Shown here: positions 1 through 55,509 of the stretch, in pieces
Position numbering within the stretch: the first letter of the stretch is position 1
Layout of the letters: the number at the start of each line of letters is the position of its first letter
Assembly (NCBI RefSeq): GCF_026151205.1
Contig: NC_087081.1
Span: 6,939,246-7,003,245, forward strand
Length of the DNA: 64,000 nt
Direction of reading: 5' to 3'
Origin: Bolinopsis microptera
Lineage: Eukaryota > Ctenophora > Tentaculata > Lobata > Bolinopsidae
Notes under the pieces: generated by a model
The model's input: only the letters and a program-made list of their open reading frames with translations
What the model was told of the DNA's origin: nothing
Database searches by the model: none
Position numbers and translations under genes: made by a program

Positions 1-888
1 TTTGTGTCAGTATGCATGGAGCTTTAGAATTAATACTGTTTTAGTAGTTAAAAGATGGTATAATTCTTTTATTTTAAAACTGTATTTTTTGAAATTCTCG
101 TGCCATGCTCCGAGTTTTATTAGTATTTTTTATTGTGTGCTAAACAACAAATGAGGCCCGTCTTTTTTTCAGTCTGCTTCCCTCTAAGAACACTAGTTTT
201 GGGATAATTTAGTTGTTTAAATAATATTTATAATTTGGTAGAATCCTTTAAAAAACAAAATTCTTTTGTTGTTTCCTTGTCTGGCTTCACGGGGACATGT
301 AATTGCAGAATGCACGGTCTTTATACTTTTATAATATCTGTTTGGTAGCTGCCACCCTAACTAGTCATTACTTATATTATCAATATCTGCACTTTGTTCA
401 ACTTTATAGTCCAGTTAACGGTCGTTATTATTCATTTATTATTGGAGATTTTTTTAACAAGTTGCAGTGCTAAGATATCAGTATGATTTAGAGAAAGTGT
501 GCAGTTTACTAGGTAAGGAACAATTAATGTAGTGATAAAGTTTGAACAGCACACGATGATGGGCTGAATGTGAGTTTTGTTTGGGACTTGCTGATAACTA
601 ACTAGCTAATACTGACTCTTCTATGCGATGTATATTGTCCACATCACGGTTGAGTAGTCGTCATATTCTTAATGTTCAGTCATTGTTAGGGGGTATTGTA
701 GTGTGTAGTTCGATCTTTTCTGCGTCGATTTGATATTATTTATACTTTCTTGATGTTATCTGTTTTCAATGTTTTCAGTTCATAATAAGTACCAGTTAAT
801 ATCAACAACCAAATAATCCTAAAAAGTGACAAAATAACCTATGACATATTCAGTATTGAATAATGTAATGGGATGATACTTTAAACAG
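1..888. other. Non-coding stretch, nothing recognised
   Basis: AT-rich sequence with stops in every frame. I see no exon-like stretch, array or inverted repeat. Confidence 0.5.
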
Positions 889-1190
889 GTGTAGCCAGTC
901 CACACCCTGGCTCCATGATATGAAGGACTTGTTTTAATTCTAAATGGGAAGCTCTAATATGACAATGCAGTGACAGGAGTACAGCAATTGTTTATAATGG
1001 CGCGAGCGGTCACCCCCTGTATAAAAGCTCGCCCTTCAGGCACGTGCTTGTACTAATAATAAACTAGTGTTTTAAACTAATTACAACACTACGAATCTAT
1101 TACATTTGTAGAGTATTGGTACGGAAGTGCTTCAACATGGTGGGCTGGTGTAGCAAGTCCTGGCTCCTTAATATAAAGGACTTGCCTTTC
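889..1190 (+). repeat. Diverged ~40-bp duplicated motif
   Basis: A motif beginning GGTGTAGC and ending AAGGACTTG occurs at about 889-930 and again at about 1145-1190. The copies differ by small indels. The second copy starts with CAAGTCC-like and ends with GGACTTG, so it could form a small hairpin. It is probably debris of a dispersed repeat. Confidence 0.4.
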
Positions 1191-1759
1191 AGCTGGTGTT
1201 TATAATTAATGACGCCAGGTACGGGGGTAGTTCATTAATTATTTATTTCATTTTATAAAACTTGACAGCACAATATGGTGTTAATAAACATTTTTATAGA
1301 TTCTTCCACCTAATTTTGGACGAATACATCCTTTGTATTCTTCTTCTTCTTCGTAGGGGGCAGTGGTCTTTACTACTTAGGAATAGATCAAAACCACTAT
1401 AAGATAGAGCATTGTAGTCACTAGTTACAATTATAAAAGGACAGCTAACGAAATACTGAAATAGAGATGAGACTTATTAGAATGAGCTACTGGGTACTGG
1501 GTAGTTCTGTCAGATTACAGAGAGGGAGGGTCTTCTAATAATTTAACATTCTGTGGGTGTATGAAAGTGCACTGTATTAAACCTTACAACTACAATAACT
1601 GTTTACAGAATCAAGTTTAGACAAATGGATACAAATTCTTTCAAAAAATTTCTTTAATGCGAGGTTTAGTAGGTTTTAGAATCTAAGTCGTTGATTAAGA
1701 AAAGAAACAAACCTAGTCAACAGCAGAGCAGAAGTGCAGGTTTCTTGTGAATAATAATC

Positions 1760-1850
1760 TGTTTGTTGGTAGCACAGTGGGTAAAGTGTCTCAACTTACC
1801 CCACTTCAGAAGAATCAGAAGAAATTGAACCCAACCAATAGAACAATCAA
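1760..1850 (+). repeat. Possible tRNA-derived SINE head
   Basis: TAGCACAGTGGGTAAAG (about 1769-1785) resembles a Pol III A box. About 50 bases downstream, AATTGAACCC resembles a B box with one base missing. The order and spacing fit a tRNA-derived SINE head. No tRNA cloverleaf or poly(A)-type tail was found, so this is tentative. Confidence 0.3.
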
Positions 1851-1879
1851 CACGGTTCCAATAAGGCTTCACTTTCGCT

Positions 1880-2480
1880 TAATATCAGTTTCTACAAGAG
1901 AGCTAATTATGTTCTGCAGATTTCTGGGTTCTATAAGTATAACGCTTCTGACTTTTGATTAACACTGTCCTGAAAATAGACACTCTTTCTGCTGTCTAGT
2001 TAGTACAGTCAAATACGTCCTAATTTAAGCCTTTGGCGGACAAAATTCGCAACAAAGCGATTTTAACGGGAAATGGTCGGGACAGGTTTCAGGAATCATT
2101 CCAGAGAATTCCCAAAATTTCTGACTTGAGGTAATTGTGGATTTTGCTCAGGTCGGAAATTTTGGGAATTCTCTGGAATGATTCCTGGGACCTGTCCCGA
2201 CCATACCCGTTAAAATCGCTTTGTTGCGAATTTTGTCCGACAAAAAGACGTATTTGACTGTACTAAGTGGAAAAGTCATGAAAATAGACACTCTTTCGAT
2301 TGTTTTAGTCCAGGTGTCTGTCATGGCAAAAGGTATTTTTCAGTTCAAACATCTAATATCAGTTTCTATAAGAAAGCAAATAATGTTCAGCAGATGACTG
2401 GCTTTTGATTAACACTGTCATGAAAATAGACATTGTTTCAAATAATGTCTAGTGGAAACGTATTTAGTCCAGGTGTCTGT
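1880..2480 (+). repeat. Diverged tandem duplication split by a MITE
   Basis: Motifs such as TATCAGTTTCTA, CTTTTGATTAACACTGTC and GAAAATAGACA recur around 1880-1990, 2275-2440 and beyond, and GTCCAGGTGTCTGTCATG occurs twice. The block is an old imperfect tandem duplication, later interrupted by the inverted-repeat element at 2006-2260. Confidence 0.5.
2006..2260. mobile_element. Foldback MITE with TA target duplication (mariner-like)
   Basis: The left end CAGTCAAATACGTC is matched by GACGTATTTGACTG at the right end, and a TA dinucleotide lies directly outside each end (2004-2005 and 2261-2262). The inverted repeats extend inward for about 110 bases with few differences, leaving a short central spacer near 2127-2148. 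It has no ORF. The TA duplication and terminal CAGT suggest a Tc1/mariner-type non-autonomous element. Confidence 0.75.
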
Positions 2481-5187
2481 CATGAAAAAAGATAGTTTCT
2501 TTTTCTTCTTCAGTTCCCTCACCCGATTTCACGTCCCCTAAAGTTAACCTTAACGCTGGAGATACTGAGATATGTTGCTTGCATGTCTGAGAGCACAACA
2601 AGTGTATGAACGGTTAAGGGTTGTACCCTATAAATAGCTATACATGATTGATTATGAACGAATAATTATGATATTATACGCTGTATATTGGTCATTACAG
2701 GCTGTCTAGGATCGGTGAGACAGTCGGTTAGTGTCTCAGAGGCTGTACAGTGATTTTACTGATATATTTCATAACACTTCCACTTTTGCCCACTCGTAAT
2801 GCATGATATTTTTGTAGGAAGATATACTGGACTTGAGGTTCATTTACTTTTGAGGTTTTTTAACTTGTGCAGGCGCGGTCTGTCCGGAATCTGAATTGCA
2901 GATGATTTGAATAAATGCATCTTATTGGAATCCGACAAGGTTTATTACAATTGAGTCGATAAAAAATATCGTTTTCTGTCAGCCAATAGCGGATACTTAT
3001 AAGCTGATTAGATGCATGTATATTATGTTTTATCGTGCAAAACAGCTTAGCTTATGAGCTTTAGTTTATTAACTTAAGATATTAAGTTTAGATATACGGC
3101 CCCCTGTAGGTACACAGGAAATTATATTACGTTCTTGAACTTTGGTTTCTTTTCATCCACCGTCTTGCTCTTGTGAAGCCACCACTTTGTAGCAAATGGC
3201 ATGTACTCGTAGCTTTTTTCTGTTTGGATAACGTCAAGTAGTTGAGTTTTCAATCATTTCATTTACTTACAATGAAGTTCATCAGCTTCTTCGTTGCCAC
3301 ACAGTGTATGCTAATACCCATAATTTTCTTGTGGAGCTTTTTATTTATTAAATACTTTCCAAATTTTACAGAGTACGTACACCAATAAATTAGAACCGTT
3401 CGGAAATATTGCCCCCAGCTGTAAAATATGAATGTCACCCAAACACGGTAAACACACAGTGAAATATGTCCGCAATTACTTGGATCCATTAAAATAGAGG
3501 ACTTGAATGGAGGACTCTAGTTGAGATAGTTAGATAAAGTCAATCTTCATAAAATATATAGAGGACTAGTTTAGATACGTCCTAATAGTCATTCTTCATG
3601 AATGTGCGTGACTTTGCCGAATTACAATACAAGTATTGTAATCCTACAAATTTTTAAATAGCTGTAAATCACGAATATTTATGAACATACTTATGAACAT
3701 CAACTGTATAATGTCTCCCGGTTGAAATAGATATACAGGATACGGAGAGTTAAGATAGCTTCCTGAGAGAGCATGTCAAACTTTTGTGTAGCGAGATATG
3801 GTCCAACTGAGATCTCTCTTTACTCGAGCTGGTATGTCTAGAGCAAACATGAATTCGCTATTATTAGTTAGTTAGTTAAAGTTATATTGTTAGTTAGTTA
3901 AGTTACATTGTTAGTTAGATAAGTCATATTGTTAGTTACTTAAGTGGCGTGAGCTTCTATTTCCCATTCTCCAGGATAGACCAGAGAGCGTTTGTTGGGA
4001 TCACACGTTTCTAAGATCCACTCTGTAGGCACGTGTCCAGTTTATAGAGGTGTTATAGGTTGTACCTTGGTAAGCACTGAGACAAGCCTAGGGTAAAATA
4101 CAAGGTTCTGAGCGACAGCGCACATTGGCTCCTTTCATCTTTTCCGCGGTAGATTCACTATTGGTTACCGTAGTTTATATGCACGTCGGCAGTAATAAAT
4201 AACTTTATAAAGAAATATTATAAGGCATTCTTTAACATGCGTCTAGATGTCATCGATAAACAGTTTTGTAAAATAAAGATTATTACTTAGTTCTTATTTT
4301 AACGACAAAATGTTATTCAATCCTAGTTAGAAGAACCGCCCTGACATAAAGATATTCAATATCTATTGTCGGTTATATGAGCGGGATAGAACACCCTACT
4401 TCATTTCATTTTACAGAGACATTGTCTACCTAGTTTTGTGCCTGATAAAGTTCAAGTTTCTCACCCCTAATCTCCTGTGTCAGCTCCTAGTAATTGTTAT
4501 CAGATAACAGGTTGTTTAGCCATTCATCTGTCTCAATGAGCGGTAACATCCTGATTATATATTACATTCCTGAGATTTACAGGTTTTTCAGATGATTAAT
4601 TCTGTATTGATGGTCCGATAGTCTTACTGTTTTGCTCGTGCACTTTTATACTAATTTACTATTATTACATGCGAATCTGAATCATTGTTTTTGAATTCCA
4701 GATAGATGGCCCCAGTCGACTTAACAGGAAAAAGAAACTCTCCGAATAACAATTTTACCATACAAATATAATATGTGTGACATATATATGTCACACCCTT
4801 TAAAATGTAACTAAAATAAAAAGTGCTCGTAAAAATAAAATACATCACAACGAAACTGCGAAATATCAGTTTTGTTAGTAGTTAGCCTAACTCCAATCTT
4901 AATTTTACGCGTCTTTAAACAATTTAATGATAGATTAACATGCTACAAAGAAATTTGAAGTCGGCGCTTACTTGTTTTGTTATGGCTATTAGAGGGCTAA
5001 TATAATTAGATATATTTAAAAGATGGCTGTTAGCCGGCTGTTACCGTAATAACTGGTTAATAGCCAGTAGGCCTATTTGCGAGTGAGGTCGCCCCAGAAG
5101 TCTGTTCGAATTATCATCACCCTGTATCTCTAATTTTGTCACCTTGTACCTCTCATGATGTTTAATCAGATCACTTGATACGCAACC
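2481..5187. other. Non-coding stretch without recognised gene
   Basis: Both strands are broken by frequent stops. The only structure seen is a short run of TTAGTTA-type repeats near 3865-3945. Small ORFs at 3259-3489 and 4651-4848 on the minus strand look random. Confidence 0.5.
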
Positions 5188-5305
5188 CTCGATATATCTC
5201 ATCTCTCAGTACCAAATACAGTACCCCTTGATATATCTCATCTCTCAGTACCAAATACAGTACCCCTTGATATATCTCATCTCTCAGTACCAAATACAGT
5301 ACCAT
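5188..5305 (+). repeat. Tandem repeat, ~41-bp unit, 3 copies
   Basis: Three consecutive copies of a unit containing GATATATCTCATCTCTCAGT and CAAATACAGTACC. The second and third copies are nearly identical, the first slightly diverged. Confidence 0.85.
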
Positions 5306-5684
5306 AAAAGTGTAGTAAAAGTTGAGCGGAATTATCAGATGAGTTTACTAATTCTACCGTATCGCTGGACAACTCTTGCTTTCCTTCTGTTAACAGACTA
5401 CTGTTGGTTTCCCCGCTCTTCGTCTCTAGTCTCTACTAATACATGCCCGTCCTGCAACTCATCTTCTACAATTACAAGCTCAATTTCGTTTCTTTCTTCT
5501 TTCATCTCCGTGTAGAAGGATCTATATCAAGATGTAGTATAGCTGAAAAATACTAATTTGGACGAATTAGTCCCAGCAATTCGACCTGTTTTAGTTTTCA
5601 GATACAACGACATGGCAGATAATTTAATCATACGCTACATTTAGTCATACCAAAATTCGACAGAGTCGAACTTTAGGGTTTGTC

Positions 5685-5825
5685 GAACTAGGGTACGTAT
5701 CGAACTAGGGTACGTATCGAACTAAGGGTACGTATCGAACTAGGGTACGTATAGAACTAGGGTACGTATCAAACTAGGGTACGTATTGAACTAGGGTACG
5801 TATCGAACTAGGATACGTATCGAAC
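5685..5825 (+). repeat. Minisatellite, ~17-bp unit, about 8-9 copies
   Basis: The unit is close to GAACTAGGGTACGTATC, repeated with occasional substitutions such as AAGGG and GATACG. Confidence 0.85.
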
Positions 5826-5830
5826 TATAG

Positions 5831-7194
5831 TAGTATAGTACGTGTTATACGCCAATCTAACTTTAGCTTATGTTTTTCCTTACTTCATTAGCCTAAAACT
5901 ATTCGTCAGAACAGACCGTAAAATTGTGCCAAGCAATATTTCTGATAATTCCGCCCGAATTTATAATGACAAATGACGGTGCTTTAATAAATGAAAACAA
6001 TTATAATTGCATTGAAGGTAGGGAAAATTCCCTTCACTTATGCTGGACTTCCCTGCACTTTTAAGAGTGTGGACAATAGACCGTGTTGTATTGCTGACTG
6101 CCAACCTTTTCGCTGTAACCTACAACTTGTATTGCAATGTTTGATAATGTACGAGCACTCATCCCAGACGGCCTAGTTTTTTTACAAGAATCTTGCATCC
6201 TATAGGAAATTTTCCTTAAGCTTGTACGGTCCCAATACTCCTTTATAAACTATATAAATATTTGTTTACAAACTATATCGTCGGAACATTCCCATCTGTT
6301 GAAAGGTATTAGGTTTTTTTAAACCCATTTCCTGAACAGGATCAGATTTGCGTAGCATTCCTTCTCGTTTTCCAGGCATGTCTTTTTCTGGAAAGAATGC
6401 TGCTAATAATGTGCTAAATAAGCCTGTTCGGTTGACATGATTCACATGTTCATATTATGCGCATATTCTTACTTTCCTTCCTCCCACTTCCAGTGGCGAT
6501 AACTAATTAATTAATTAATGACGCGACTTGTCACCATGACATATTGTTCGATAATTTAGTACGTAGTAATTTAGTTTTCGTAATACTGATACGATTAAGT
6601 TGCAATTGTATCAGCTATTCTAGCAACTAATTCTCACCTGTGGAGGAGGCATGATAATTATGGAACGTTTTTCATTTTCCTTCGTTTGCTATCTTTAGAA
6701 GCTTTAACCTAAATCCTATTTTTGTTTTATCACATATTATTGAATATGGTGTGGAGGCATACTCTCGACGAACATTTTGACGTTGTTGATTTCATATTCT
6801 CTCGAATTTTCTGTACACCAATGACACTGCGACTAAAGGAACTAATGACAAATAAAACAATAGCAAAGTAACAAAAATAGCCAATATTTAGGTACAGACG
6901 GTACCTTCTGCTGGGCATATTGGCATTGCTCCATGTTTAATGCACGCGGATTACTGATCCGTGAAGTTGGATTTTTGTTACTCTTAGCCCAGTTCTGTGC
7001 TTAATCAAACTCAAGATCAAAGTAATGATCAAAGTCTCGATCATCAAAGTAATGGGTTTGTCAAAGTAGTGTGAGATGTTTTCTCGACAAATTGAAATAA
7101 AGCGCTTGGTATAGTGATATTCTGTTTTGTAGGCTCTAACTCTAGTCTCTAAGTTGTAGGCTCTCTCCCAATTAACCAGTTACTTCTGTTCCCC
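5831..7194. other. Non-coding stretch, nothing recognised
   Basis: AT-rich DNA without convincing exons. It includes a short (TTAA)n-like run at about 6505-6520 and reiterated ATCAAAGT motifs near 7010-7070. The minus-strand ORF at 6730-6918 has a hydrophobic centre but no family I know. Confidence 0.45.
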
Positions 7195-7200
7195 TCGGAA

Positions 7201-9123
7201 CGTAATTAATACCTCATTCTGTGTAAAACCTTTCAGTCATTAATACCTCATTTTGTGTAAAACCTTTAGTCATTAATACCTCATTCTGTGTAAAACCTTT
7301 CAGTCATTAATACCTCATTTTGTGTAAAACCTTCCAGTCATTAATACCTCATTCTGTGTAAAACCTTTCAGTCATTAATACCTCATTATGTGTAAAACCT
7401 TTCAGTCATTAATACCTCATTCTGTGTAAAACCTTTCAGTCATTAATACCTCATTTTGTGTAAAACCTTTCAGTCATTAATACCTCATTTTGTGTAAAAC
7501 CTTTCAGTCATTAATACCTCATTTTGTGTAAAACCTTTCAGTCATTAATACCTCAGTCTGTGTAAAACCTTCCAGTCATTAATACCTCATTTTGTGTAAA
7601 ACCTGTCAGTCATTAATACCTCATTTTGTGTAAAACCTGTCAGTCATTAATACCTCATTTTGTGTAAAACCTGTCAGTCATTAATACCTCATTTTGTGTA
7701 AAACCTGTCAGTCATTAATACCTCATTCTGTGTAAAACCTGTCAGTCATTAATACCTCATTTTGTGTAAAACCATTCAGTCATTAATACCTCATTTTGTG
7801 TAAAACCTTTCAGTCATTAATACCTCATTCTGTGTAAAACCTTTCAGTCATTAATACATCATTTTGTGTAAAACCTTTCAGTCATTAATACCTCATTTTG
7901 TGTAAAACCTTTCAGTCATTAATACCTCATTCTGTGTAAAACTTTTCAGTCATTAATACCTCATTCTGTGTAAAACCTTTCAGTCATTAATACCTCATTC
8001 TGTGTAAAACCTTTCAGTCATTAATACCTCATTTTGTGTAAAACCTTTCAGTCATTAATACCTCATTCTGTGTAAAACCTTTCAGTCATTAATACCTCAT
8101 TTTGTGTAAAACCTTTCAGTTATTAATACCTCATTCTGTGTAAAACCTTTCAATCATTAATACCTCATTTTGTGTAAAACCTTTCAATCATTAATACCTC
8201 ATTCTGTGTAAAACCTTTCAGTCATTAATACCTCATTCTGTGTAAAACCTTTCAGTCATTAATACCTCATTTTGTGTAAAACCTTTCAGTCATTAATACC
8301 TCATTCTGTGTAAAACCTTTCAGTCATTAATACCTCATTTTGTGTAAAACCTTTCAGTTATTAATACCTCATTTTGTGTAAAACCTTTCAGTCATTAATA
8401 CCTCATTCTGTGTAAAACCTTTCAGTCATTAATACCTCATTCTGTGTAAAACCTTTCAGTCATTAATACCTCATTCTGTGTAAAACCTTTCAGTCATTAA
8501 TACCTCATTTTGTGTAAAACCTTTCAGTCATTAATACCTCATTTTGTGTAAAACCTTTCAGTCATTAATACCTCATTTTGTGTAAAACCTTTCAGTTATT
8601 AATACCTCATTCTGTGTAAAACCATTCAATCATTAATACCTCATTTTGTGTAAAACCTTTCAGTTATTAATACCTCATTCTGTGTAAAACCTTTCAGTCA
8701 TTAATACCTCATTTTGTGTAAAACCTTTCAGTTATTAATACCTCATTCTGTGTAAAACCTTTCAGTCATTAATACCTCATTTTGTGTAAAACCTTTCAGT
8801 CATTAATACCTCATTTTGTGTAAAACCTTTCAGTCATTAATACCTCATTCTGTGTAAAACCTTTCAGTCATTAATACCTCATTCTGTGTAAAACCTTTCA
8901 GTCATTAATACCTCATTTTGTGTAAAACCTTTCAGTCATTAATACCACATTCTGTGTAAAACCTTTCAGTCATTAATACCTCATTCTGTGTAAAACTTTT
9001 CAGTCATTAATACCTCATTTTGTGTAAAACCTTTCAGTCATTAATACCTCATTCTGTGTAAAACCTTTCAGTCATTAATACCTAATTCTGTGTAAAACCT
9101 TTCAGTCATTAATACCTCATTTT
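7201..9123 (+). repeat. Satellite array, 34-bp unit, about 56 copies
   Basis: The unit reads approximately CATTAATACCTCATTY, TGTGTAAAACC, TTTCAGT. Copies differ mainly by a T/C switch in CATT(T/C)TG and by TTTCAGT versus TGTCAGT or TTCCAGT. TGTCAGT variants cluster at about 7600-7745, which points to local spreading of variants. Stops in all frames rule out coding. Confidence 0.97.
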
Positions 9124-10670: not shown

Positions 10671-12082
10671 TATTAAGGGGAGATACACCAAAACCGTTTT
10701 TGCTCCGAACATCGATTTTATTTTATATTATTTTTAAATAGACAAAAATAATAAGATTGTACACCTTCAAACATTTTTAAAAATATTCCCTCATCGAGAA
10801 AAAAAATATTTTTCTTTTTCGAAAATTTTTAAAATTTGGAGAAGTCTGTCACTGTAATACCGATAGTTCGGCCATTTAAAAAGTTTTTTAGCTGATTTTT
10901 TTACTGAACATTACTTACACTCCGTACTAGAAGCCATTGAAAGGATTATATAATTGAACAATAAATGACCAAGTTACAGACCGAACAAGGTGAAAAAAGA
11001 AAAATTGGGATTTTTGCCTACCACCAAAGTTGTACATTTCACCACCCACCCAGGTCATCAGATATCGCTTCAAAAATTCTTGTGAGTGTAGTTGATGATC
11101 ATGGCAAGCTTTTTGGAACCGGATTTCTCTCAATTTTGAGTTTTAAGCTATGCAATGTGGCCTCAAACGACTTAGTAAAATTCATCGTAAAAAAGGGCAA
11201 AAAAGGCAGATTTAAGGCTTAAAATGCCTATAACTCAAAAAGTGTCAGTTTTTTTGAAATAATTTTTACAGGATCGTAATCAGCTTGGTAAGACGAATCT
11301 TTTAGTACGACATTTATAATATTCAAAGCCACAAAATTTGTAAAAAAATGTGTACAATTTGTACAGAATTTATACAAGGGGGGACCCTTGTGTTCGAGCT
11401 AGAAAATTATTTAAGACAATTTGTCTTCTAAAAGCACCTATTTGGTACTAAAAGATTCGTCTTACCAAGCTGATTACGATTCTGTAAAAATTATTTCAAA
11501 AAAACTGACACTTTTTGAGTTATAGGCATTTTAAGCCTTAAATCTGCCTTTTTTGCCCTTTTTTACGATGAATTTTACTAAGTCGTTTGAGGCCACATTG
11601 CATAGCTTAAAACTCAAAATTGAGAGAAATCCGGTTCCAAAAAGCTTGCCATGATCATCAACTACACTCACAAGAATTTTTGAAGCGATATCTGATGACC
11701 TGGGTGGGTGGTGAAATGTACAACTTTGGTGGTAGGCAAAAATCCCAATTTTTCTTTTTTCACCTTGTTCGGTCTGTAACTTGGTCATTTATTGTTCAAT
11801 TATATAATCCTTTCAATGGCTTCTAGTACGGAGTGTAAGTAATGTTCAGTAAAAAAATCAGCTAAAAAACTTTTTAAATGGCCGAACTATCGGTATTACA
11901 GTGACAGACTTCTCCAAATTTTAAAAATTTTCGAAAAAGAAAAATATTTTTTTTCTCGATGAGGGAATATTTTTAAAAATGTTTGAAGGTGTACAATCTT
12001 ATTATTTTTGTCTATTTAAAAATAATATAAAATAAAATCGATGTTCGGAGCAAAAACGGTTTTGGTGTATCTCCCCTTAATA
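10671..12082. mobile_element. 1.4-kb foldback element, two 638-bp arms, TTAA-flanked
   Basis: The left arm (10671-11308) and right arm (11445-12082) are reverse complements of equal length around a 136-bp unique spacer (11309-11444). I noted one mismatch (ACAGGATCG versus ACAGAATCG); the 85- and 68-codon ORFs in one arm recur unchanged in the other. The ends are TTAAGGGGAGATACACC and its complement, so TTAA is the likely target duplication, as in piggyBac- or Kolobok-type elements. The arm ORFs resemble no transposase I know. A shorter related element lies at 26527-26776. Confidence 0.88.
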
Positions 12083-13029: not shown

Positions 13030-13811
13030 GGGGGGAATGCAACGTCAATTAATGTCAGTATTCCATAAAAACCCCAAACTGACATTGACATTAATTGACA
13101 TTAATTGACATTAATTGACATTAATTGACATTAATATGTCTTGAAATTTGAGATTATCATTATTCGATAAATATTCAAGATATTCACGTCTATGTAAGTT
13201 AGACCGGTTCAAAAAAACAAAATGTCCTTGAATAATTATGAGTATGTTCTTATCTGTTGATCCTTAGGTTCTAAGACCACCAAAAAAAATTTCAGCTTCC
13301 AACTCTTCCATCTTCGGTCCCCACCGGCCACGCCCATATTTTATTGGTTTCTTATACAGGTAAAATATATAGAATCGGCTTTTTTAGTATGAAGGAGTAA
13401 TGTTAGCTGTTTAAGATTCGTTATTCAAATATAAATGTCATGAAGGCATTTCGTTTAATGTGGGTTTTAAGTTCTGATGATGTTGAGAACCACGCCCTTG
13501 GATGGCCACGCCCATTTAAGAAAATTAAATTTCGGAAAACCGTATTATTTTAGTTTTATTGTTTAATGATCTTAATTTTTTTCACATTTCACATTTCCAT
13601 ATGTGATAGTAGTGAATAAAATGATGATATAAACGTTCTAAAGTGCTAAAAATATGGTAGAACTACATAATCTCTGGTCGAAAAATATCGTGTCAATTAA
13701 TGTCAGTATTCCAAAATTTTGCAAAACTGACATTGACATTAATTGACATTAATTGACATTAATTGACATTAATTGACATTAATTGACATTAATTGACGTT
13801 GCATCACCCCC
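13030..13811. mobile_element. 782-bp TIR element with 8-bp TSD and two internal minisatellites
   Basis: A perfect 8-bp duplication TGCCCTCT flanks the element (13022-13029 and 13812-13819). The ends are inverted repeats: a G-run, then ATGCAACGTCAATTAATGTC on the left, and the complement followed by a C-run on the right. Near each end there is a GTCAATTAATGTCAGTATTCC-like start and then tandem TTAATTGACA-type units (13078-13135 and 13725-13800). The TSD length fits hAT, P or Merlin groups. There is no transposase ORF, so it is non-autonomous. Confidence 0.8.
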
Positions 13812-15264: not shown

Positions 15265-17744
15265 GGACAACACATGATATTGATCATTAATTAACGGTCA
15301 TGGTCGTGTTGTCTGGCCTATACTCTTGTAGATTTGTACCAGGCCTTGTTTTCATTAATCATCCGTGACAAAACAAGTTTCCTCGGGTAAAGTTTTGTAA
15401 CGAGTTAAGGTAATTATATTCTCCTTCTCTTACTTTGTGTAGTCAGATATACAACGAGGCTTGTTCCATAGTATCTTGCGTGATGCAACGGCCAAAAACA
15501 ACTTTGTTCTTATATATAAACAAGAGCCAGGAGACGACCCGGAGCAGGGTAATCAGGATGGTACCAAAAATCCTAATTTTGATTTTAGTAATTCGTAGAA
15601 AAGTAATCCCTCCCCACTAATTGCCCGGTACGATTTAAGAAGCCTTGCGATAACTCAATCCGGTGACTTGATTTGTAACATTCCGTATCAGGTATCTCGC
15701 TTTATCTTGATTTGTAACATCTCGTTTTATATCTCCTTGTTGTATATATCAACAAATAGCAGCTAGGTAAAACTGAGTAAAGTATTAACTTTCTAAATAA
15801 GTTTATAATTGTTCCGGAAAGTTTCTAAAAGTAAAGTATTAACTTTCCATATAAGTGTATATATAGTAGTTCTCGGTTGTTTCTTGATGGCGTGCTTCTG
15901 TTTGGCTTTACTCAGCGACTGTTTCACGTCAAGAACTTTCCGCCGTGCACATTTACCCTCTATTCCTACTTACTATTCCGACTTGTTTCGTAAGAGCTTT
16001 TATAGTAAAGTAACTCTATTTTCGGCCTCCTGGGAGTCAAGGGCTGGGTTCAAGTCTGCTTCAGAGAATTATTCTGACAACAACAGCTGTCGGATACAGA
16101 AACTTACAAATTACACTGTAGTTTAAACACCTGTTCAGCGGATTTGTCAACCCTATGGAAGTTTTGTGAGAGTATAAACACGGTTAGAGTATCTCGCCCG
16201 CTCATAAATCATTAATCCCAATTGTTTGCGGAGGTCTTTTAATTTATTTTATCCGATTTACTGTTAGGTCTCAGCTCAGAATTTTATAGTTTTAAAGTTC
16301 TGACCAAATAGTTTATATTCAAAGATCATACAATAGTTCACCGACTAATTTTCAATGTGGCTTCCCCGATTGAGACCTGAAGAGGTATCTGTAAAGACTG
16401 TTTGTCCCTGGTGCAGCATTCCTTTTAGCATTCCAGCTCCTGATTTATAGGTACACTGGGTTATTTAGCTGTTATTAATTTACCAGATCTGTATTAGAAG
16501 TTCCTTTGTCTGGTGCTATAACTAGCCAAGTTACTGGGGGGGGGGGGGGGGGGGGGGGGAGGGGGGGCGCAAAATCGTCGTTTGAATGTGGGCCAATTTT
16601 GAAAAAACTTAACTACAGTACTAACAAAACTGCGCGTTTTGCTCTAGAAACCTACTTTTTTAGAGATTTTACAGGCGTATCCTCTAAAATAATCTAATTT
16701 GTCCAATTTTAGGGAGGGGCGCCAAAATGAAAGGGGGCGCTTTTTCAGCGGTGGGCGCCAACAGGCAACGTTACGCGACTGGGATAGTGTTACTTTGAAA
16801 CTAGTGAGGCATAGTTTTACTACAACCTTGCATTTTCTTAATTAACCTGATAGTTCCCTGTCACCTTGTTCTTGTCATCTTTCTATTGAGATATCACTGA
16901 AATTACATTTTCTAGAGGCCTCACTAAACTGCACAGTAAACTCTGTTTCTCCGACTTCTTTGGAAACGTTTTATAAGGTTGATCCTGATCACTGCTCAAG
17001 TTTCAAGACTTAAACTGTTGTTATTATTCATAAACTCTGTTACTGGTAGCAGTGTTACTACTAGACGCAGTTTTACTATACGGCTGGATCTTTGCTTTAA
17101 CGAGAGCTAAATGTATCAGTATAGTAGACTGGTATTCTTACTAAACATTGAATTCTCTATCTCCAAACTATTCAGGACATTTTGAAGCTACCACTTTTCT
17201 GAGAAGGTTGTGACAACTCTAGCAGATCCAAACAACTAACACCGCCACACTTATCCACACACGTATCTACACACTACAACAGGATGGTAACCCCACTAAC
17301 TGAACCGCTGTTAGAGACGGTGTCAGGACCGCTGCCGCCCCTCATAGCTCAGTTTACTCTATCCAATAAAACCCACACTTGAGCTAGTAGTACCTCGCAT
17401 AATAAATAATAATAAATCCACACTTGACCTGAACTAATACTAATGGCCGCCCTGTGAAGTATTCATACCGAGTGATGAGTGATGATACCTTGACAGTTGG
17501 CGGTCTGGTAACTTAACCAACCTTTCAACCAGTCTTTTGGTTGCTGTTTTAGTTCAAAGTGTGTTTCACATTGGTTGACGAGTGGTCTTTGAGCCGAGTA
17601 AATCAGGATTTTCATTTTAGCTTTACAGTACTTGTTTGGTCATTGAACAGTTATTCCAGCCTTCTGGAATGTTTCAACCAGACAGTGAGTCAGAGTGATA
17701 GATGTGGTAAGGGTGATAACGTTACTCAAACTTTCAAACTCAGA
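15265..17744. other. Non-coding stretch with a G-rich tract
   Basis: No gene recognised. A run of about 24 Gs broken by one A lies at about 16536-16567. Downstream sequence to about 16760 contains GGGCGCC-type motifs also seen near 38378-38405, so it may be a diverged mobile element. The 105-codon plus-strand ORF at 15809 begins at a TTG and resembles no family. Confidence 0.45.
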
Positions 17745-18673
17745 GCAACCACCATCCTCTCCACAGCAACCACCATCATCTCACAGCAACCACCATCCTC
17801 TCACAACAACCACCATCCTCTCCACAACAACCACCATCATCTCCACAGCAACCACCATCCTCTCACAACAACCACCATCCTCTCCACAACAACCACCATC
17901 ATCTCCACAGCAACCACCATCCTCTCCACAACAACCACCATCCTCTCCACAGCAACCACCATCATCTCCACAGCAACCACCATCATCTCCACAGCAACCA
18001 CCATCATCTCCACAACAACCACCAACCTCTCCACAACAACCACCATCATCTTCACAGCAACCACCATCATCTCCACAGCAACCAGCATCCTCTCCACAAC
18101 AACCACCATCCTCTCCACAGCAACCAGCATCCTCTCCACAGCAACCACCATCCTCTCCACAGCAACCACCATCGTCTCCACAGCAACCACCATCCTCTCC
18201 ACAGCAACCACCATCCTCTCCACAACAACCACCATCCTCTCCACAGCAACCACCATCATCTCCACAGCAACCACCATCCTCTCCACAGCAATCACCATCA
18301 TCTCCACAGCAACCACCATCCTCTCCACAGCAATCACCATCCTCTCCACAGCAATCACTATCCTCTCCACAACAACCATCATCCTCTCCACAGCAACCAC
18401 CATCATCTCCACAGCAACCACCATCATCTCCACAGCAACCACCATCATCTCCACAGCAACCACCATCCTCTCCACAGCAATCACCATCATCTCCACAGCA
18501 ATCACCATCATCTCCACAGCAACCACCATCCTCTCCACAGCAATCACCATCATCTCCACAGCAATCACCATCCTCTCCACAGCAACCACCATCCTCTCCA
18601 CAGCAATCACCATCCTCTCCTCAGCAACCACCATACTCTCCACAGCAACCACCATCATCTCCACAGCAACCAC
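17745..18673 (+). repeat. Minisatellite, 21-bp unit, about 44 copies
   Basis: The unit is close to CCACCATCMTCTCCACAGCAA. Because 21 is a multiple of three, long ORFs open in several frames on both strands (for example a Pro/Ser/Gln repeat, PQQPPSS). Units of 20 bp early in the array (TCTCACAAC) shift the frame, arguing against selection on a protein. I treat it as non-coding. Confidence 0.93.
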
Positions 18674-20110
18674 CTTCTTTTATTTTCACGCGGTCACAGT
18701 CATTGATCTCATAATTTTCCCTGCGTTTTTCCCAGAGTGGTTATAATTTTCTCGCCACTACCGACATTCGACAACCATGTATTTTTTAAGAAATGACCGT
18801 CTCTGTTTAAAGTGCTAATTTAATAAAGCGGTTGTATTGTCTAGTTATTATGCCGCAAGCAGAGACTGAGAAGTAATATGGTGCCAGATGTACCACATAT
18901 CATATTATTATCATGCGATACATTTATAGAAAGTGTTTTAGACAGTGTTTTTATTTTTACCTTTCCAGTATTTTATATTATTTCAGGTATTTAATTATTT
19001 TAAATCATAGTGACACTCCTTTTAATTTACTACATTATTATGGTGCGATATTTTGGACAGCGTCTGCAGAAATTACTTTTAACAATTTATTTCCAACTTG
19101 TTTATAATTCCCTCATATCTTTAAATTATTTAAAACTAATTCCGGCAGATTCTTTGATCTGTGCTCTTTGTTAGACACAATAGACAAGTTAGGAGTAAGC
19201 GGTTTCCACAAAATACGTTTATAGTGATTTAGTGCTTAAAGTGACACTTTCAAATGAGTTTTCGTATGAGCTGAAATACTTGTTCCATTACGTCTACTGT
19301 TTCTACTCCCAGTACGTGCTCTACAAGGTTATCCTGTAACTATACTTGGCGCTTGCAGTAGACGCACTGACAGGTACAATTTAATAAAGGAGCAGATAAG
19401 CTTGGTTACTACTTTACTCTCTAGTCTCTGTTAGCATCATACTCGGATAGTACACACTTCACATAGTACAGCCTACTTCTTTACTTTTTACTGGGATATT
19501 GGGATGCCCAACTTTGGTGCTTACTTACAATTTACATTCTATTATAGTATTATACTTGGGTATTTGCTTATTTTCCTGTTATTGTTCACGTTGTGTACTA
19601 GAGCCAGTTAATATCCAACTTTTGTTGATTGATATATAATATATATTTAATTGAAGCCGCAGTAATGAGAAAACTGAAAAGTGTTATATTTCAGGGTCTG
19701 TTTAGAGTCCCGATCGCATGGCGCATATTTGTCAGCTAATTCTTGAAGTTGTTACAAAAATATGTTCCCCACATTTCTTGCTTGAATATTTTTAGTTTTA
19801 GAATACATTTTCCATAAGTAAATATTTGCCACCTTTTTCAAGTAAAAAACAATTTAGTCGTCGATTTTAAGCATCAAAAATATATTTTAAAGTTTTAAGC
19901 TGTTCTTAACATTCTTTTAAAACCTTTTTCATACTTTTACTTATTTCCATCGTTTGGGCCATCTTGGATTCCTTTTTTTTCACGTTCTGTACATAGTTGT
20001 GAATATCTTATATATTTCTAGCTCATTTACTATCTCCACTAGCTCCCTATATCTCTGCCACCTGTTATGAGAAGAACCAGTCTGCTCAGAAGAACCAGCA
20101 CTACCGGTTA
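18674..20110. other. Upstream region of the EF-hand gene, no exon recognised
   Basis: AT-rich sequence. The reading frame of the first EF-hand exon stays open for some distance upstream of its ATG (at least 20045-20110), so a longer 5' coding exon or a transcribed leader cannot be excluded. No promoter motif is clear. Confidence 0.4.
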
Positions 20111-30238: not shown

Positions 30239-33200
30239 TTTAGGATGGTGTGTGACTGTAACGGGTCCGCATGACTGTAAAAGTCAGTACGTTTAACGCC
30301 TCGAGGAAGATCGCAGGATTCCTAGTCTACGCTACTCTTTTCATCATGGCTACGACACTCAATTTTGGGACATGGAATGTTTGCGGTCTATCGACCACAT
30401 ACAGGCAACACTTCGTTGCAGAGGACATTGACAGATATAACTTAGACATTTTAGCACTTCAGGAGACCAAGACACGTGAATACTTGGAAACAACACTCCC
30501 TGGACATCATCGATTGTTTTTGTTTGATCAGAGACACGATAGACACGGTGGACTTGGGTTTATTGTTAACAAGCGTTTTTTGGAATGTATAGTATCCCAT
30601 CATCAGATCAGTGACAGAGTTGTTTATATGGACTTTAAATTAAGTGCTAAAAGGGTGGATCAACCACCTTGTCATATCAGAATTGTTAATTGTTACAGCC
30701 CTACGAATCCCAAGTCAGTTCAGAATCCCCGTTTAGCAACCCAATTTTACGATGAGCTACTCGAGGCTATCAGTGTACCTGCTAGATTTGAAGTATGGAT
30801 GTTAGGCGACTTTAATGCCAAACTTGGCAAAAGAAGCCCTGTTGATGTAGAAAATGGTTTACATGTGAATATTGGTAGACATGGTGTTGGGAGGAGGAAT
30901 GAAAACGGTGAAAGGTTGCTACACTTTCTCACTGCTAATGGCCTGTTTGCTGCCAACACTTCATTCTCCCATAGCAGCAGACACATTACCACACGGACTG
31001 GTTGGATTCGGGATCGAGCAACCAGGAAAAGTAAACCTTATTTCCAACAGATTGACTTCATACTCTGCAAGTCCAGAAGCAAGGCACTGCTAACTGATGC
31101 CAGGTCATATGCAGGTACAAAGCACCGCAGTGACCACAAACTTGTTGTTGCCAAGGCAGATTTTTCGCAGCGCTTCATTTTGTACAGGGAGAGCAGAGCA
31201 TTTCAGAAGACTTATAACACAACAACCTTGATTGGAAGCAAACAGGCTCAACAACAATATCAGCAAGAACTTCGTCAGAAACTTGAGCAAACTGTATCAG
31301 ATCCTGACTTTACTTCCAACAACACGGAACAGCAATTTGATATGCTTTTTCGTGAAGTTAAAGAAGCTGCTGTTTCCACTGTGGGTTTTCGCGAGCCACA
31401 GCGAAAGAGGAATCATTCCTCTGACAGTCAAGTTGTTAGCATGTCTGAAGAAAGGAAACAACTTTTACAACAACTGAACAACAACGAATACAGAGACAGG
31501 ACAGCTCTCAGAGCTAAAATCAACAGGCTCTCAAACGACATTACTAAACGGTTGAAAACATTGAGAGTTGAGTTAGCAAACAGCCTAGCTAACTCTATAG
31601 CCACCATAGACGAAGGACGGAGAATGTTTGAAGCCGCTCGTCAACTATCAGGCAAACAGAAAACGGGTGCAGGCTCTGTGTCTGTTTTCAACACTGACAA
31701 CCAAATGGTAGATAATGAACGAGACAAGGCTGAAATCATTCGCCAGTACTTCGAAGAACACTACACTGGACCTGACAGTGAACCACCACTAGAACCGTTC
31801 ACAGGTAACCCTAGGCCCCTTCAAAACCCCATTACAGCGTTTGAAGTTGAGCTTGCGGCCAAGAAACTCAAGAACGGTAAAGCTGTTGGACCAGATGGGA
31901 TCCCAAACGAATTTCTCAAACACTCTCCTGAAATCTTTTTTTCCACATTTGCACAACTTACTAATCGATCCTTTGAGCTCCATGAACATGTACCTTCTTT
32001 CACAGAGGGATACCTTACTCCGCTCCAAAAACCTGGAAAGCCACTAGGCCCCCCTAAGAGTTTGCGCCCACTTTGCCTACTAAACGGTACTAGAAAGATA
32101 TTGTCCATGATAGTCTTAAAGCGCATCCAAAGGCAAGTATCTCAATACACTGGTCCTTGGCAGAATGCCTATAAACCTGGCCATAGTTGTGCAAATATCG
32201 TTTGGACCCAGCGAATACTAGTGTCAGTTGTCAAAGAAAAACGCTGGTCTCTTCATAAGATGGGCATTGACATGTCCTCTGCTTTTGATACCATAAAGAG
32301 GTCGGTATTACTTGACATTTTAGCTGATGCTGGTTGTAGTGAGGACGACATTCGACTGGTAAGGTATTTGCTCGCAAATACTAAACTGAAGATCAAAGTG
32401 AACTCAACAATATCGGGAGAGTTTATTGTCACGATTGGAGCTTTTCAAGGCGACAGTTTGTCTGGAAACTTGTTCACTCTATATCTGGCAGCAGCACTTT
32501 ACCGACTGCGTGCTGTTATGTCCTATCTAAGACCTAACCCTCCCATAGCTGAGAATCTGTTACCCCTCGAGTGGGAGTATGCAGATGACGCTGATTTTAC
32601 TGATGAGGATAAAAGTAACTTGGAGTCTTTGTTGCCAATATGTAAAGAGATATTGGAAGAGTGGAATCTTTTTGTCAATGAGTCAAAAACCGAGTTCACC
32701 CACTTCTATCTGGCCGGCAAGAACGAGGTTGATGACAAAGGAGAGACACTCAGAGGTAGAGAACCTTGGAGGTCATCTATCTCTTTAGGCTCTAAGTTGT
32801 GCAGCATCGAAGATGTCAAGAGACGATGTATACTCGCTAACATTGCTTTTCAGAACTACAAAAAAGTCTGGGAACAAGGTAGACGTATACCCTTGAAGAT
32901 TCGACTCAAGATATATGAAGCACAAGTTGTTTCAATACTGATGTATAATTGCAGCAGTTGGGCAACATCTAAACAACTCCTTCAAAAACTTGATGTCTGC
33001 CACAGGAATCATCTCCGTACGATCATCGGCATGACCTACCCTATTGTCATACGAAATGTGACTCTATACAAACGCTGCGAAGTTGTTCCACTAAGTGAGC
33101 GTGTTGCTCGTGCACGGTGGAGAATGCTCGGTCACATCCTCCGCAGTGATAATAACTCACCTGCCCAGCTTGCCTTACATTTTGCTGTAGAGAGTCAGAG

Positions 33201-33459
33201 TTTGATGAGAGGTAGAGTCGGACGACACCAGTCAAACTTGTTAAAAACTATTTTGAACGATTTAAGTGACAGAAACTTTAGACTTGTAAATACAGACGAT
33301 TTATACCATTTAAGACATTTTGCAACAGATAGAAAAGCATGGAGAGAGTTAAGCATGATTTAGTTTATTCTGTGTTATTTTTCTCTTGGTGACTTATCAG
33401 GTCATCAAGATGTTCTTTATGTTCTATTTTTGATTTGAATAAAGTTATATAATATAATA
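30239..33459 (+). mobile_element. Full-length RTE-like non-LTR retrotransposon (LINE)
   Basis: A 13-bp target duplication ACTTAACAGTGAT occurs at 30226-30238 and 33460-33472. The 3.22-kb element holds one long ORF, a short 5' leader and a roughly 100-bp 3' UTR ending in an ATAATATAATAA-like tail. Size and single-ORF layout fit the RTE group. The intact ORF and exact TSD suggest a recent insertion. The target was the 5' end of a hAT-like element, whose CAGTGAT is now present on both sides. Confidence 0.88.
30271..33363 (+). CDS. LINE endonuclease/reverse transcriptase, 1030 residues
   Basis: This is the retrotransposition protein of the RTE-like LINE. An apurinic-type endonuclease occupies about residues 28-297, with catalytic signatures WNVCGLS (Asn36), LQETKT (Glu65), GDFNAKLG (Asp180, Asn182) and RSDHK (Asp288, His289). 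The reverse transcriptase spans about 520-800: KNGKAVGPDGIPNEF, DMSSAFDT (Asp668), GAFQGDSLSGN and EYADDADF (YADD 770-773). A C-terminal region has YNCSSWA and RMLGHILRSD, shared with the fragment at 37252-37683. It nicks target DNA and copies its RNA there. Met26 (MATTLNFGTWNV) is an alternative start close to the endonuclease. No gag-like ORF1 is seen. No stop or frameshift interrupts it, so activity is possible but untested. Confidence 0.93.
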   Translation: MTVKVSTFNASRKIAGFLVYATLFIMATTLNFGTWNVCGLSTTYRQHFVAEDIDRYNLDILALQETKTREYLETTLPGHHRLFLFDQRHDRHGGLGFIVNKRFLECIVSHHQISDRVVYMDFKLSAKRVDQPPCHIRIVNCYSPTNPKSVQNPRLATQFYDELLEAISVPARFEVWMLGDFNAKLGKRSPVDVENGLHVNIGRHGVGRRNENGERLLHFLTANGLFAANTSFSHSSRHITTRTGWIRDRATRKSKPYFQQIDFILCKSRSKALLTDARSYAGTKHRSDHKLVVAKADFSQRFILYRESRAFQKTYNTTTLIGSKQAQQQYQQELRQKLEQTVSDPDFTSNNTEQQFDMLFREVKEAAVSTVGFREPQRKRNHSSDSQVVSMSEERKQLLQQLNNNEYRDRTALRAKINRLSNDITKRLKTLRVELANSLANSIATIDEGRRMFEAARQLSGKQKTGAGSVSVFNTDNQMVDNERDKAEIIRQYFEEHYTGPDSEPPLEPFTGNPRPLQNPITAFEVELAAKKLKNGKAVGPDGIPNEFLKHSPEIFFSTFAQLTNRSFELHEHVPSFTEGYLTPLQKPGKPLGPPKSLRPLCLLNGTRKILSMIVLKRIQRQVSQYTGPWQNAYKPGHSCANIVWTQRILVSVVKEKRWSLHKMGIDMSSAFDTIKRSVLLDILADAGCSEDDIRLVRYLLANTKLKIKVNSTISGEFIVTIGAFQGDSLSGNLFTLYLAAALYRLRAVMSYLRPNPPIAENLLPLEWEYADDADFTDEDKSNLESLLPICKEILEEWNLFVNESKTEFTHFYLAGKNEVDDKGETLRGREPWRSSISLGSKLCSIEDVKRRCILANIAFQNYKKVWEQGRRIPLKIRLKIYEAQVVSILMYNCSSWATSKQLLQKLDVCHRNHLRTIIGMTYPIVIRNVTLYKRCEVVPLSERVARARWRMLGHILRSDNNSPAQLALHFAVESQSLMRGRVGRHQSNLLKTILNDLSDRNFRLVNTDDLYHLRHFATDRKAWRELSMI

Positions 33460-52150: not shown

Positions 52151-53540
52151 TAAGGTAAGTAATGTAAAACGTATTTGTTTTTACATATCGTTGTAAAACG
52201 TGTAAAGTTGTAAATTACTTAGAAGATATTCGAATATTATCCCAGTAATACAGCATGTAGGATAATTATGCAGAATAATTATGCAGTTTATTGCACGTCA
52301 TTTAAGTTGTGACAAGAGTTTATTTTAGGCCTCAAGTCATAGCGTTAATTAGCTCCAATTAAAGTTATATTAATTAGTTGTTTGCAATGGGTGGTGTAGT
52401 TAACTTTATTTGTTGTAAGGACTAGGTTTAGTTTATTGTGATTATGTAGGTTCATTGTGCCTTTTGTGTGGCATTCCTATAGTTAACTTTCATTTTATTA
52501 ATTTGAATATTACCACTCAGTGTAACAAATATCCATTATTTATGGTACTGCATCCGGGTTCCCATTCCAAAAATATTGGAAATATTAAATATATTATCCA
52601 TTAGATATATAGGAGGCGCTTTTTCTGTAACTTTGCAATAAAAATAAGTTTATTTTTGACCTTTCGGCTTTTATTGTAATATATTTTTTAGTTCGTTCCT
52701 GCCGCTTTTGGAGTTGAAATTGTCAAGAATTCGAAATTTTCAAAGGATTTTAAGACTTCAAAGAAAGAAAGCGGCAAAAGTACCAGTTTTCTTGATCAGA
52801 CATCTAATGAATGTTAAGAATCTTAATAAATATCATGAACTTTATTAAATATATCATCTGTATCCACTGCTCTGGGCCGCAGATTTTAAAACAGTAATAT
52901 CAATTAAAATTCTTTAGCACGTTCAAAACATTCCAGAGTCACTGTATTCTGTAATTCATTTTAATTTAATACCAGATTCATATAAAGCTTTTAACGACAG
53001 AATATTACATTAAATTTATAAATTGCTTCGTGATTTTTGTCTTCCTCAATTATAAATCAATTATAAGTCACTCTTTAAAATTAAATCACACTAATTAATT
53101 TTACTGCAACATCTCCCAAAGCTAAGGTCACTACTCCACTACCACACAACCATGGTGCACTTAGGAGTGAGAAACTGTAAAATTAATAATGATGTACTTG
53201 TACAAGTTATTATATAACCTGATGTAATACTGAACTATGTAACTATCTCTGCAGTAACCATAGCAACAATCTCTCCTGTTACCAAAGAAACCATCTCTAA
53301 CTATGCTAGTTACTTCCCGGCTAAAATATTGGCAGTCGCGACCAATGGTTATATTATTATTTAAATGTTATTAATGTACAACTTTATTAAATACAGCTGC
53401 GAATTAGAGAGTTGGATCACGATTAAGTCTGGAATATTCATTCAGTATTCTTCTGGTAAATGTTAAAATGCTGCTAACAGTAGACTCTGATCTAATGAGA
53501 TCTACGTCAATCAACCACGTACCGACAATACCGCAGAACC
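52151..53540. other. Non-coding stretch, nothing recognised
   Basis: AT-rich sequence, no exons or elements apparent. Confidence 0.45.
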
Positions 53541-53559
53541 TACAGGTACCACTCGGTAC

Positions 53560-54207
53560 CGTACATGGACACGGTACATGGTACTCGGTACATGGTAAAC
53601 GGCACTCGGACCGTTCACGGAACACGGTACACGGTACCTACCGGTACACACGGCTACTCGGTACACGGTACACGGTACTCGGTAACTACACGGTACACGT
53701 ACGTACACGGTAAACGGTACTCGGTACATGGTACTACGTACACGGTACACGGTACATGGTAAATCGGTAAAACGGATCACGGTAAACGGTACACGGTACT
53801 CGGTACATGGTACACGGTACATGGTACTCGGTACTCGGTACACGGTACAAAGGAACTCGGTAACATGGTACTCGGTACATGGTACACGGTACATGGTACA
53901 TGGTACACGGTACATGGTACACGGTACTCGGTACATGGTACACGGTACACGGTACACGGTACTCGGTACATGGTACATGGTACACGGTACACGGTACTCG
54001 GTACATGGGACACGGTACATGGTACACGGTACATGGTACATGGTACTCGGTACATGGTAAACGGTACACGGTACTCGGAACATGGTACACGGTACTCGGT
54101 ACACGGTACTCGGTACATGGTACACGGTACACGGTACACGGTACTCGGAACATGGTACACGGTACTCGGTACACGGTACTCGGTACATGGTACACGGTAC
54201 TCGGTAC

Positions 54208-54249
<42 letters not shown>

Positions 54250-54435
54250 TCGGTACATGGTACACGGTACATGGTACACGGTACATGGTACACGGTACAT
54301 GGTACACGGTACACGGTACTCGGTACATGGTACACGGTACATGGTACACGGTACATGGTACACGGTACATGGTACATGGTACTCGGTACATGGTACACGG
54401 TACATGGACCATGGTACACGGTACTCGGTACAGTG
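53560..54435 (+). repeat. Heptamer array GGTACNN, about 120 units
   Basis: The unit is seven bases: GGTAC followed by AC, TC or AT (GGTACAC, GGTACTC, GGTACAT), with a few GGTAAAC or GGAACAT exceptions. The first 150 bases are more irregular. Seven-base units give 21-base triplet periods, which explains overlapping 110-316 codon ORFs on both strands; none looks selected. Confidence 0.95.
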
Positions 54436-54493
54436 TGTGACCAGGCTCTTGTTCTTGACATGTCCTATTAAGATGATCGTCATTTTGATGAAG

Positions 54494-54518
54494 ACCCCCC
54501 CGGCCCCCCCCCCCCCCA
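54494..54518. repeat. Poly-C tract
   Basis: A run of C broken by GG, about 24 bases. Confidence 0.9.
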
Positions 54519-54539
54519 TATTATTGCAGTAATCTGAAT

Positions 54540-55495
54540 TGCTGACTACGGAGCGAACCTTCGTGATATATAATTTGATATAACCACCGAGTTGGCGTGT
54601 CGTTCGTATCTATCTTTAAGAAATATTTGCTCTTTTCCTTCCGTTAAACGCAGTAAACGACCGGGACATGATCCCGGTCGTTTACTGGTTAAACGTATCA
54701 TATTCCTCCGATATAACTCTTTACTCGTCCTATTATTACGAAACAATAGCGCTCCTTGTAAACCGTGTTATTTGACATTGTGTGGTGGCGTGAAGTGTTA
54801 CTACGGAGTTACTAATGTAGATTGTGGTTACTAATGTATTTACTACAGAGTTACAAGTGAAGTTACTAATGTAGTTACCGCAGATTTACTACAGAGTTAC
54901 TAAACTATTCCGTTAGTTACTGTAATTTCCACCTCATGGAGTTAGACCCACTTCACTACAACTACCACCCACCATACTACCTGGAATACAGTATACACAA
55001 ACACGACCTGGATCAAGTAATAATCATATTGAAATTAATTGTGTGGTTAATGTTTTGCAACCTGTTTAATGTATAATTTTATTGCTCAAATTGTAGTGCG
55101 ATGTTTAAATTAAATTAAATTGTATGTGCACAAAGCGTGGTTCACTCCACCACTAGTGTATCATGTCAGTGTTTATTACTTAAAAGCTTCATTAAATTAC
55201 CACCCTCTCTCTGAATGTTCACTACTTTTAATGGCCTAAATCCATGTATCACATGTAAATGAGTACATTCCATTACCACACTAAATACCTCTCTAGATAC
55301 AGCCATACGTAATGATAAATTAATAAGCTCCTCTCTTGTAAACTGGATCAGAGACAACCTGGATCATATTATATAGCCAGCCTCCAAAGGTAGCTCTTAT
55401 ACAGTGGTATCATTACTACAGTGTAAATATAGCTCCCTGCACCATATGGTACTGTTTATTATATAGTTATATATCCTTAGTCTCATTGGACTCCC
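54540..55495. other. Non-coding stretch with a small palindrome
   Basis: GTAAACGACCGGGA and TCCCGGTCGTTTAC form a perfect 14-bp palindrome with a 4-base centre (about 54651-54682). TACTACGGAGTTACTAATGT-like motifs recur at 54797-54905. The minus-strand ORF 55357-55166 resembles no family I know. Confidence 0.5.
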
Positions 55496-55509
55496 TGCAG
55501 CGCTCCTGC

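Follow-up and report, generated by a model that had tools for sequence, protein, structure and literature searches.

Long palindromes are usually held to be unstable, and the homogenisation of their arms is mostly known from single cases. A near-perfect palindrome of 1.4 kb in the genome of the ctenophore Bolinopsis microptera raises the question of what kind of element it is and what keeps its arms alike. It lies in a stretch of 64,000 nucleotides (NC_087081.1, locus G000:C10:6939246-7003245; hereafter the window). We consider it likely that the palindrome is a non-autonomous cut-and-paste foldback transposon, in other words a long-arm palindromic MITE (miniature inverted-repeat transposable element), most likely mobilised by a Kolobok transposase and with arms kept alike by occasional copying of one into the other.

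A palindrome with family-wide boundaries

A preliminary description of the window reported equal, near-identical arms of 638 bp around a 136-bp spacer, bounded by TTAA, and proposed a foldback transposon with inverted repeats over more than 90% of its length. Comparison of arm with arm bears this out: the inverted arms (10671–11308 and 11445–12082, 638 bp each, with the 136-bp spacer between them) differ at a single position (11272 versus 11481), extension inward to 643 bp brings the mismatches to three (11272, 11309 and 11311), and complementarity ends immediately outside 10671 and 12082. Chance could not plausibly produce an inverted repeat so long and so nearly identical. The outermost TA/TA pair is a chance match, because most other copies in the genome match only from the third base of the query, where TTAA begins. 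The boundary common to the family is thus 10673–12080, in the order TTAA, GGGGAGATACACC..., arm, spacer, mirror image and TTAA. Outside the element, the window contains none of its 16-mers on either strand. A transcript of the whole element would, by folding computation, form one long hairpin (predicted −1120.6 kcal/mol); the long double-stranded RNA suggested in the preliminary description is to this extent a property of the sequence alone.

Copies throughout the genome

The search covered an assembly of 264,652,675 bases in 232 contigs; stretches that were fetched and read are labelled L with a number. A search with one arm gave 42 matches (best 40 of 784 candidates scored), 41 of them at 97–100% identity and one at 81%, with 41 of the 42 alignments reaching the first T of TTAA. 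The 24-base end including TTAA, with up to three mismatches, was found at 285 + 293 places, against none for a reversed control. Near-full-length palindromic copies were read at 66 different places with unique flanks (the window and 65 others), with ends mainly of type GAGATACACC in 54 and GACATACACC in 12. Most of the 66 were found with search patterns that include TTAA; 65 have TTAA at both ends, and only L051 departs from this, reading TTAA and one additional A in each arm. Length is 1400–1419 bp in 53 copies, and the spacer is limited to 49, 114 and 126 bp or gapped in three.

Copies were taken from listed ends (100 of 578, 100 of 131 and 100 of 159) and from the arm-match loci, with the partner end required at a distance of 1.15–1.7 kb, a rule under which interrupted or decayed copies are under-represented. 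L005/L035, L008/L013, L020–L023, L025–L034, L088 and L089 were read and excluded from the arm statistics. Among them are shorter derivatives: L025 measures 269 bp, and L032 (G000:C5:11926654-11926699) is a 46-bp perfect palindrome of two family ends with no spacer. Deletion between short self-complementary motifs present in both arms would explain such forms.

Long inverted repeats are prone to misassembly, and the preliminary description had named an assembly artefact as a worry and other genomic copies as a check. With 66 copies that agree roughly in length and lie at separate places with unique flanks, that worry is answered at the level of the family, and an artefact is scarcely credible.

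Insertion at TTAA

L066 and L077 are inserted at an identical position within a host repeat, TATTATTCACGGACCTTAATRCYACAGACATTAT, with TTAA on both sides. This repeat has 104 matches in the genome with three or fewer mismatches (control, none), and in 52 of the first 100 matches listed the uninterrupted repeat is exact, with a single TTAA at the insertion place. Because the empty host repeats carry one TTAA, duplication of TTAA is demonstrated independently of the TTAA-containing search patterns. Empty sites flanked by TTAA had been put forward earlier as a check on the foldback proposal, and these paralogous ones, together with dispersal in many copies with different flanks, support it.

Copies genome-wide and empty sites therefore identify a non-autonomous foldback-like DNA transposon with TTAA duplication. 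About 90% of the element consists of inverted repeat, which is the foldback form, and it is non-coding, with many uniform copies, terminal inverted repeats (TIRs) and a target duplication, as in MITEs, for which 1.4 kb is large. No protein frame is conserved across the 132 arms examined. A frame of 85 amino acids from arm position 293 was considered as a possible protein and rejected, the frame being intact with its ATG in just 34 of the 132 arms and differences falling on all three codon positions.

The candidate helper transposase

According to the accessible text of PMC9587614, TTAA duplications are produced by both piggyBac and Kolobok elements, and ends of the form 5'-RR and YY-3' mark Kolobok. 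Directly inside TTAA the family reads GG...CC, which has this RR...YY form, as have the ends of L051 (AG...CT); L006 has AG at one end. The TTAA target-site duplication of Kolobok is likewise present, as seen at the empty sites and in 65 of 66 copies. One Kolobok-type protein query gave 65 matches in the genome, and in seven of eight fetched loci (L041–L047), belonging to six families, TTAA and inverted ends starting AG flank the transposase; none were seen at the L040 transposase locus. THAP and PF20700 domains were found in both of the Kolobok-type proteins scanned, those of L040 and L041. Judged by its sequence features, the element is probably mobilised by a Kolobok transposase.

The same palindromic MITE might instead be moved by a transposase of the piggyBac superfamily, whose targeting the TTAA duplication also fits. 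The genome holds 26 piggyBac-type transposase matches, some of them having long open frames and nearly identical duplicates (loci L014–L016 are 97–98% alike). The RR...YY ends, which separate Kolobok from piggyBac in the accessible part of PMC9587614, and the lack of family ends beside piggyBac matches among the matches listed make such a helper unlikely. No ends could be defined for the piggyBac elements L014–L016, so their comparison with the family ends is incomplete.

Several findings weigh against a Kolobok helper. The terminal repeat of the palindromic family was found in no transposase-coding element, six Kolobok-type families having been compared, and beyond chance matches it has no sequence in common with these six. 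Other Kolobok ends in this genome start with an A that 65 of 66 copies lack and only L051 has. The 17-bp family end occurs nowhere in the genome with another continuation, and the long TIR-to-TIR stretches that were read are interrupted copies. Since none of the six Kolobok-type families has a matching terminal repeat, we infer the helper, and regard the element as probably Kolobok-mobilised and not as a proven member of the superfamily. The searches for variant ends covered the matches listed, and a coding partner whose ends have diverged may exist beyond these.

Two sets of loci were considered as a source of the partner and rejected. The stretches of more than about 2 kb fetched from one family end to the next (L013, L020–L023, L088 and L089) proved to be interrupted or nested family copies, with LINE-like (long interspersed nuclear element) or LTR-like (long terminal repeat) frames in L013, L020, L023 and L089, and inserts of other or unidentified kinds in L021, L022 and L088. 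That in L022 (about 108–7209) is a 7-kb insertion with 325-bp inverted ends 98.8% alike, whose long open frames have no Pfam match. The PF20700 loci L017–L019 and L102–L105 show no visible ends and yielded no partner.

Kolobok-type elements of the genome include a 4.3-kb one in L041 (G000:C8:1818000-1824500, positions 1519–5813), with an open THAP/PF20700 transposase frame of 734 amino acids and a second frame of 214 amino acids that matches P2RX7_C (ballast) and resembles KolX from the Kol0 lineage. A transposase and a P2RX7_C (ballast) protein are described for that lineage in PMC9587614, the accessible text of which names vertebrates, annelids, cnidarians and sponges as hosts, ctenophores not being among them. 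Two 5.17-kb elements (L043, 538–5705; L044, 2203–7372) are 99.6% identical, with TTAA ends and an open Kolobok-type frame of 796 amino acids, of which a third copy lies on C1; their near-identity suggests recent activity.

Arms that evolve in concert

The preliminary description had taken the likeness of the arms to imply recent origin or ongoing gene conversion. Across the 66 copies the arms of one copy differ by 1.8% on average, compared with 5.9% after random re-pairing (within two groups, 1000 times; lowest re-paired mean 5.1%), the difference being at most 1.3% in 41 copies and 1.3–4% in 18. A tree built from the 132 arms places the partners of 43 copies as sisters, and one further copy has identical arms, making 44 of 66; 20 random re-pairings gave 0–2. 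Tree rows were mapped back by order, which a check confirmed for 130 of the 132. Bases private to one copy occur in both arms in 107 cases and in one arm in 213, where chance coincidence would give about 0.22. Counted earlier on 54 copies, the figures were 75 and 206; the larger ones come from 66 copies and a new alignment. In the youngest subfamily (26 copies, outlier L024 excluded) the figures are 15 and 47, or 15 and 82 with L024.

Shared alleles give a similar picture. At two neighbouring sites an allele is found in one arm of L007 and both arms of L063, and the 11244/11509 allele of the window copy is found in one arm of L003 and of L048; both patterns are undirected. Across 25 diagnostic sites in 54 copies, mosaic haplotypes are equal in both arms of nearly all copies, the differences consisting of deletions and one to three single sites, with L066 and L076 as clear exceptions. 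Five sister-family loci have no BLAST match to the window arm at positions 32–121 (a forced alignment of 1–122 gives 83 of 122 equal), yet four of them have ends that mirror one another; the remaining locus, L088, is interrupted. Mismatches between arms are commonest at positions 600–629, near the spacer (5.7%), where the mismatch of the window copy also lies. Re-pairing, tree, private changes and shared alleles together reveal a transfer of changes between arms in the family, in keeping with the suggestion of gene conversion.

Youth of the insertions might by itself account for the likeness of the arms, without any homogenisation. The window copy has no base private to it against the other 65 copies, as expected from the recent origin first suggested, and it belongs to the most uniform subfamily, whose copies are nearly alike; the copy is young, and for it alone the explanation by youth is mostly true. 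For the family it is contradicted, and highly improbable as a general account, by subfamily arms that differ by about 18% between groups and only 1% within a copy, and by both-arm private changes hundreds of times above chance.

Some observations tell against arm-to-arm copying. Seven of the 66 copies (L024, L066, L074, L076, L094, L095 and L099) have unlike arms, differing by more than 4%, and 53 of the 132 arms have a nearer arm in another copy than in their own partner. Counting nearest neighbours proved a weaker test than re-pairing. Both-arm private changes could also predate insertion, in unsampled relatives, which would fit these data equally.

Each transposition might rebuild one arm from the other, through a snap-back or hairpin intermediate, and the like arms of most copies and the both-arm private changes would follow from this. 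L095 and L099, and likewise L036 and L037, are however separate insertions with common arm-specific differences, arm a matching a and arm b matching b. Unlike arms have therefore passed unchanged through transposition, which means that homogenisation happens only occasionally rather than whenever the element transposes. With the further unlike-armed copies L024, L066, L074, L076 and L094, rebuilding at every transposition is very unlikely.

A proposed course of events

For a foldback transposon with occasional arm-to-arm copying, the following steps are envisaged. The ends GGGGA(G/C)ATACACC would be recognised by a transposase acting in trans, most likely a Kolobok enzyme, and the element would insert at TTAA with the duplication seen against the empty sites. 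One arm would occasionally be copied into the other, the transfer that is visible in the copies, presumably at resident sites and by either gene conversion or polymerase template switching. Recombination between copies may sometimes yield elements with unlike arms, transposable unchanged.

Somewhat more tentatively, and with the balance slightly against it, scattered resident palindromes may copy one arm over the other at a rate close to that of mutation (107 both-arm and 213 one-arm private changes), independently of transposition. If so, the palindrome would outlast the turnover of subfamilies without its sequence being under selection, and the family would be a genome-wide natural assay of arm-to-arm conversion.

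Table 1. Features of the palindromic element, in positions of the window
Feature	Position	Strand	Basis
Whole element with both TTAA	10673..12080 (1408 bp)	.	Boundary common to family
Left TTAA target-site duplication	10673..10676	.	TTAA at both ends in 65/66 copies; single-TTAA empty sites
Right TTAA target-site duplication	12077..12080	.	As for left TTAA
Terminal motif GGGGAGATACACCAAAACCG, RR start	10677..10696	+	24-mer with TTAA at 285+293 genome places
Same terminal motif GGGGAGATACACCAAAACCG, opposite end	12057..12076	-	Arm comparison and genome motif search
Arm 1 without TTAA (632 bp; the 638-bp arm first described begins at 10671)	10677..11308	+	42 genome arm matches
Arm 2 without TTAA	11445..12076	-	Arm comparison
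Spacer, unique, 136 bp; served to orient copies	11309..11444	.	Detected in 66/66 copies
Sole arm mismatch, arm position 600, partner 11481	11272	+	Same asymmetry in many other copies
Variant G in both arms of window copy (partner 11509); in one arm only in L003, L048	11244	+	

Elsewhere in the window, 30262–33363 holds an open frame of 1033 amino acids that by eye resembles a LINE endonuclease and reverse transcriptase. Three long stretches of tandem repeats, at 17553–18746, 53511–54609 and 55342–56671, are open on both strands, in several frames, and a short tandem array of 10-bp units lies at 13084–13135. Elsewhere in the genome, a glutamate receptor exon region has ML032222a, from the ctenophore Mnemiopsis, as its best solved relative, followed by a 'glutamate receptor kainate-like protein' from the ctenophore Pleurobrachia; for a second such region the best matches were delta-1 and kainate receptors.

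Comparison with known systems

As far as the accessible texts of PMC9587614 and PMC6004289 describe them, Kolobok elements and the T2-MITEs of Xenopus resemble the present family in TTAA duplication, RR...YY ends and non-autonomous copies alongside genomic Kolobok transposases. T2-MITEs have terminal AGGRR, whereas here GGGGA is found in 65 of 66 copies and AGGGG only in L051, and arms of about 632 bp forming 90% of the element are absent from the descriptions in the accessible parts of these papers. In the available portions of PMC3573991, PMC4168063 and PMC4079207, the foldback-like Galileo two-TIR copies and Tetris are alike in their very long inverted repeats with little or no coding sequence, their chimeric copies with arms from different subfamilies, and suspected arm homogenisation. 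The ctenophore family differs from them in TTAA, nearly uniform length and arms in which no tandem repeats were seen.

Searches of the literature on ctenophore Kolobok, long-TIR or foldback Kolobok and transposon arm homogenisation found no description of this family, weak evidence given that most subscription papers lay outside their scope. Judging from the accessible portions of the works cited, its form (Galileo, Tetris), TTAA/RR elements (Kolobok) and the homogenisation of long inverted repeats (PMC8604942) are already known; the present data show, in a ctenophore, a family of foldback type at TTAA as well as Kolobok elements that encode a KolX-like protein. It is a known kind of element with unusually clear data, ordinary in kind and a good test system. 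In the inverted-repeat homogenisation by template switching or gene conversion treated in PMC8604942, the accessible text of which also reports numerous long-repeat cases, arm differences are removed as they are here. That system consists of short repeats in yeast genes, whereas here many dispersed copies of one transposon serve as replicates. With dozens of copies of one long palindrome, conversion can be weighed against mutation, intermediates are visible (changes in one arm, in both arms, and unlike arms), and it can be asked whether arm homogenisation needs transposition.
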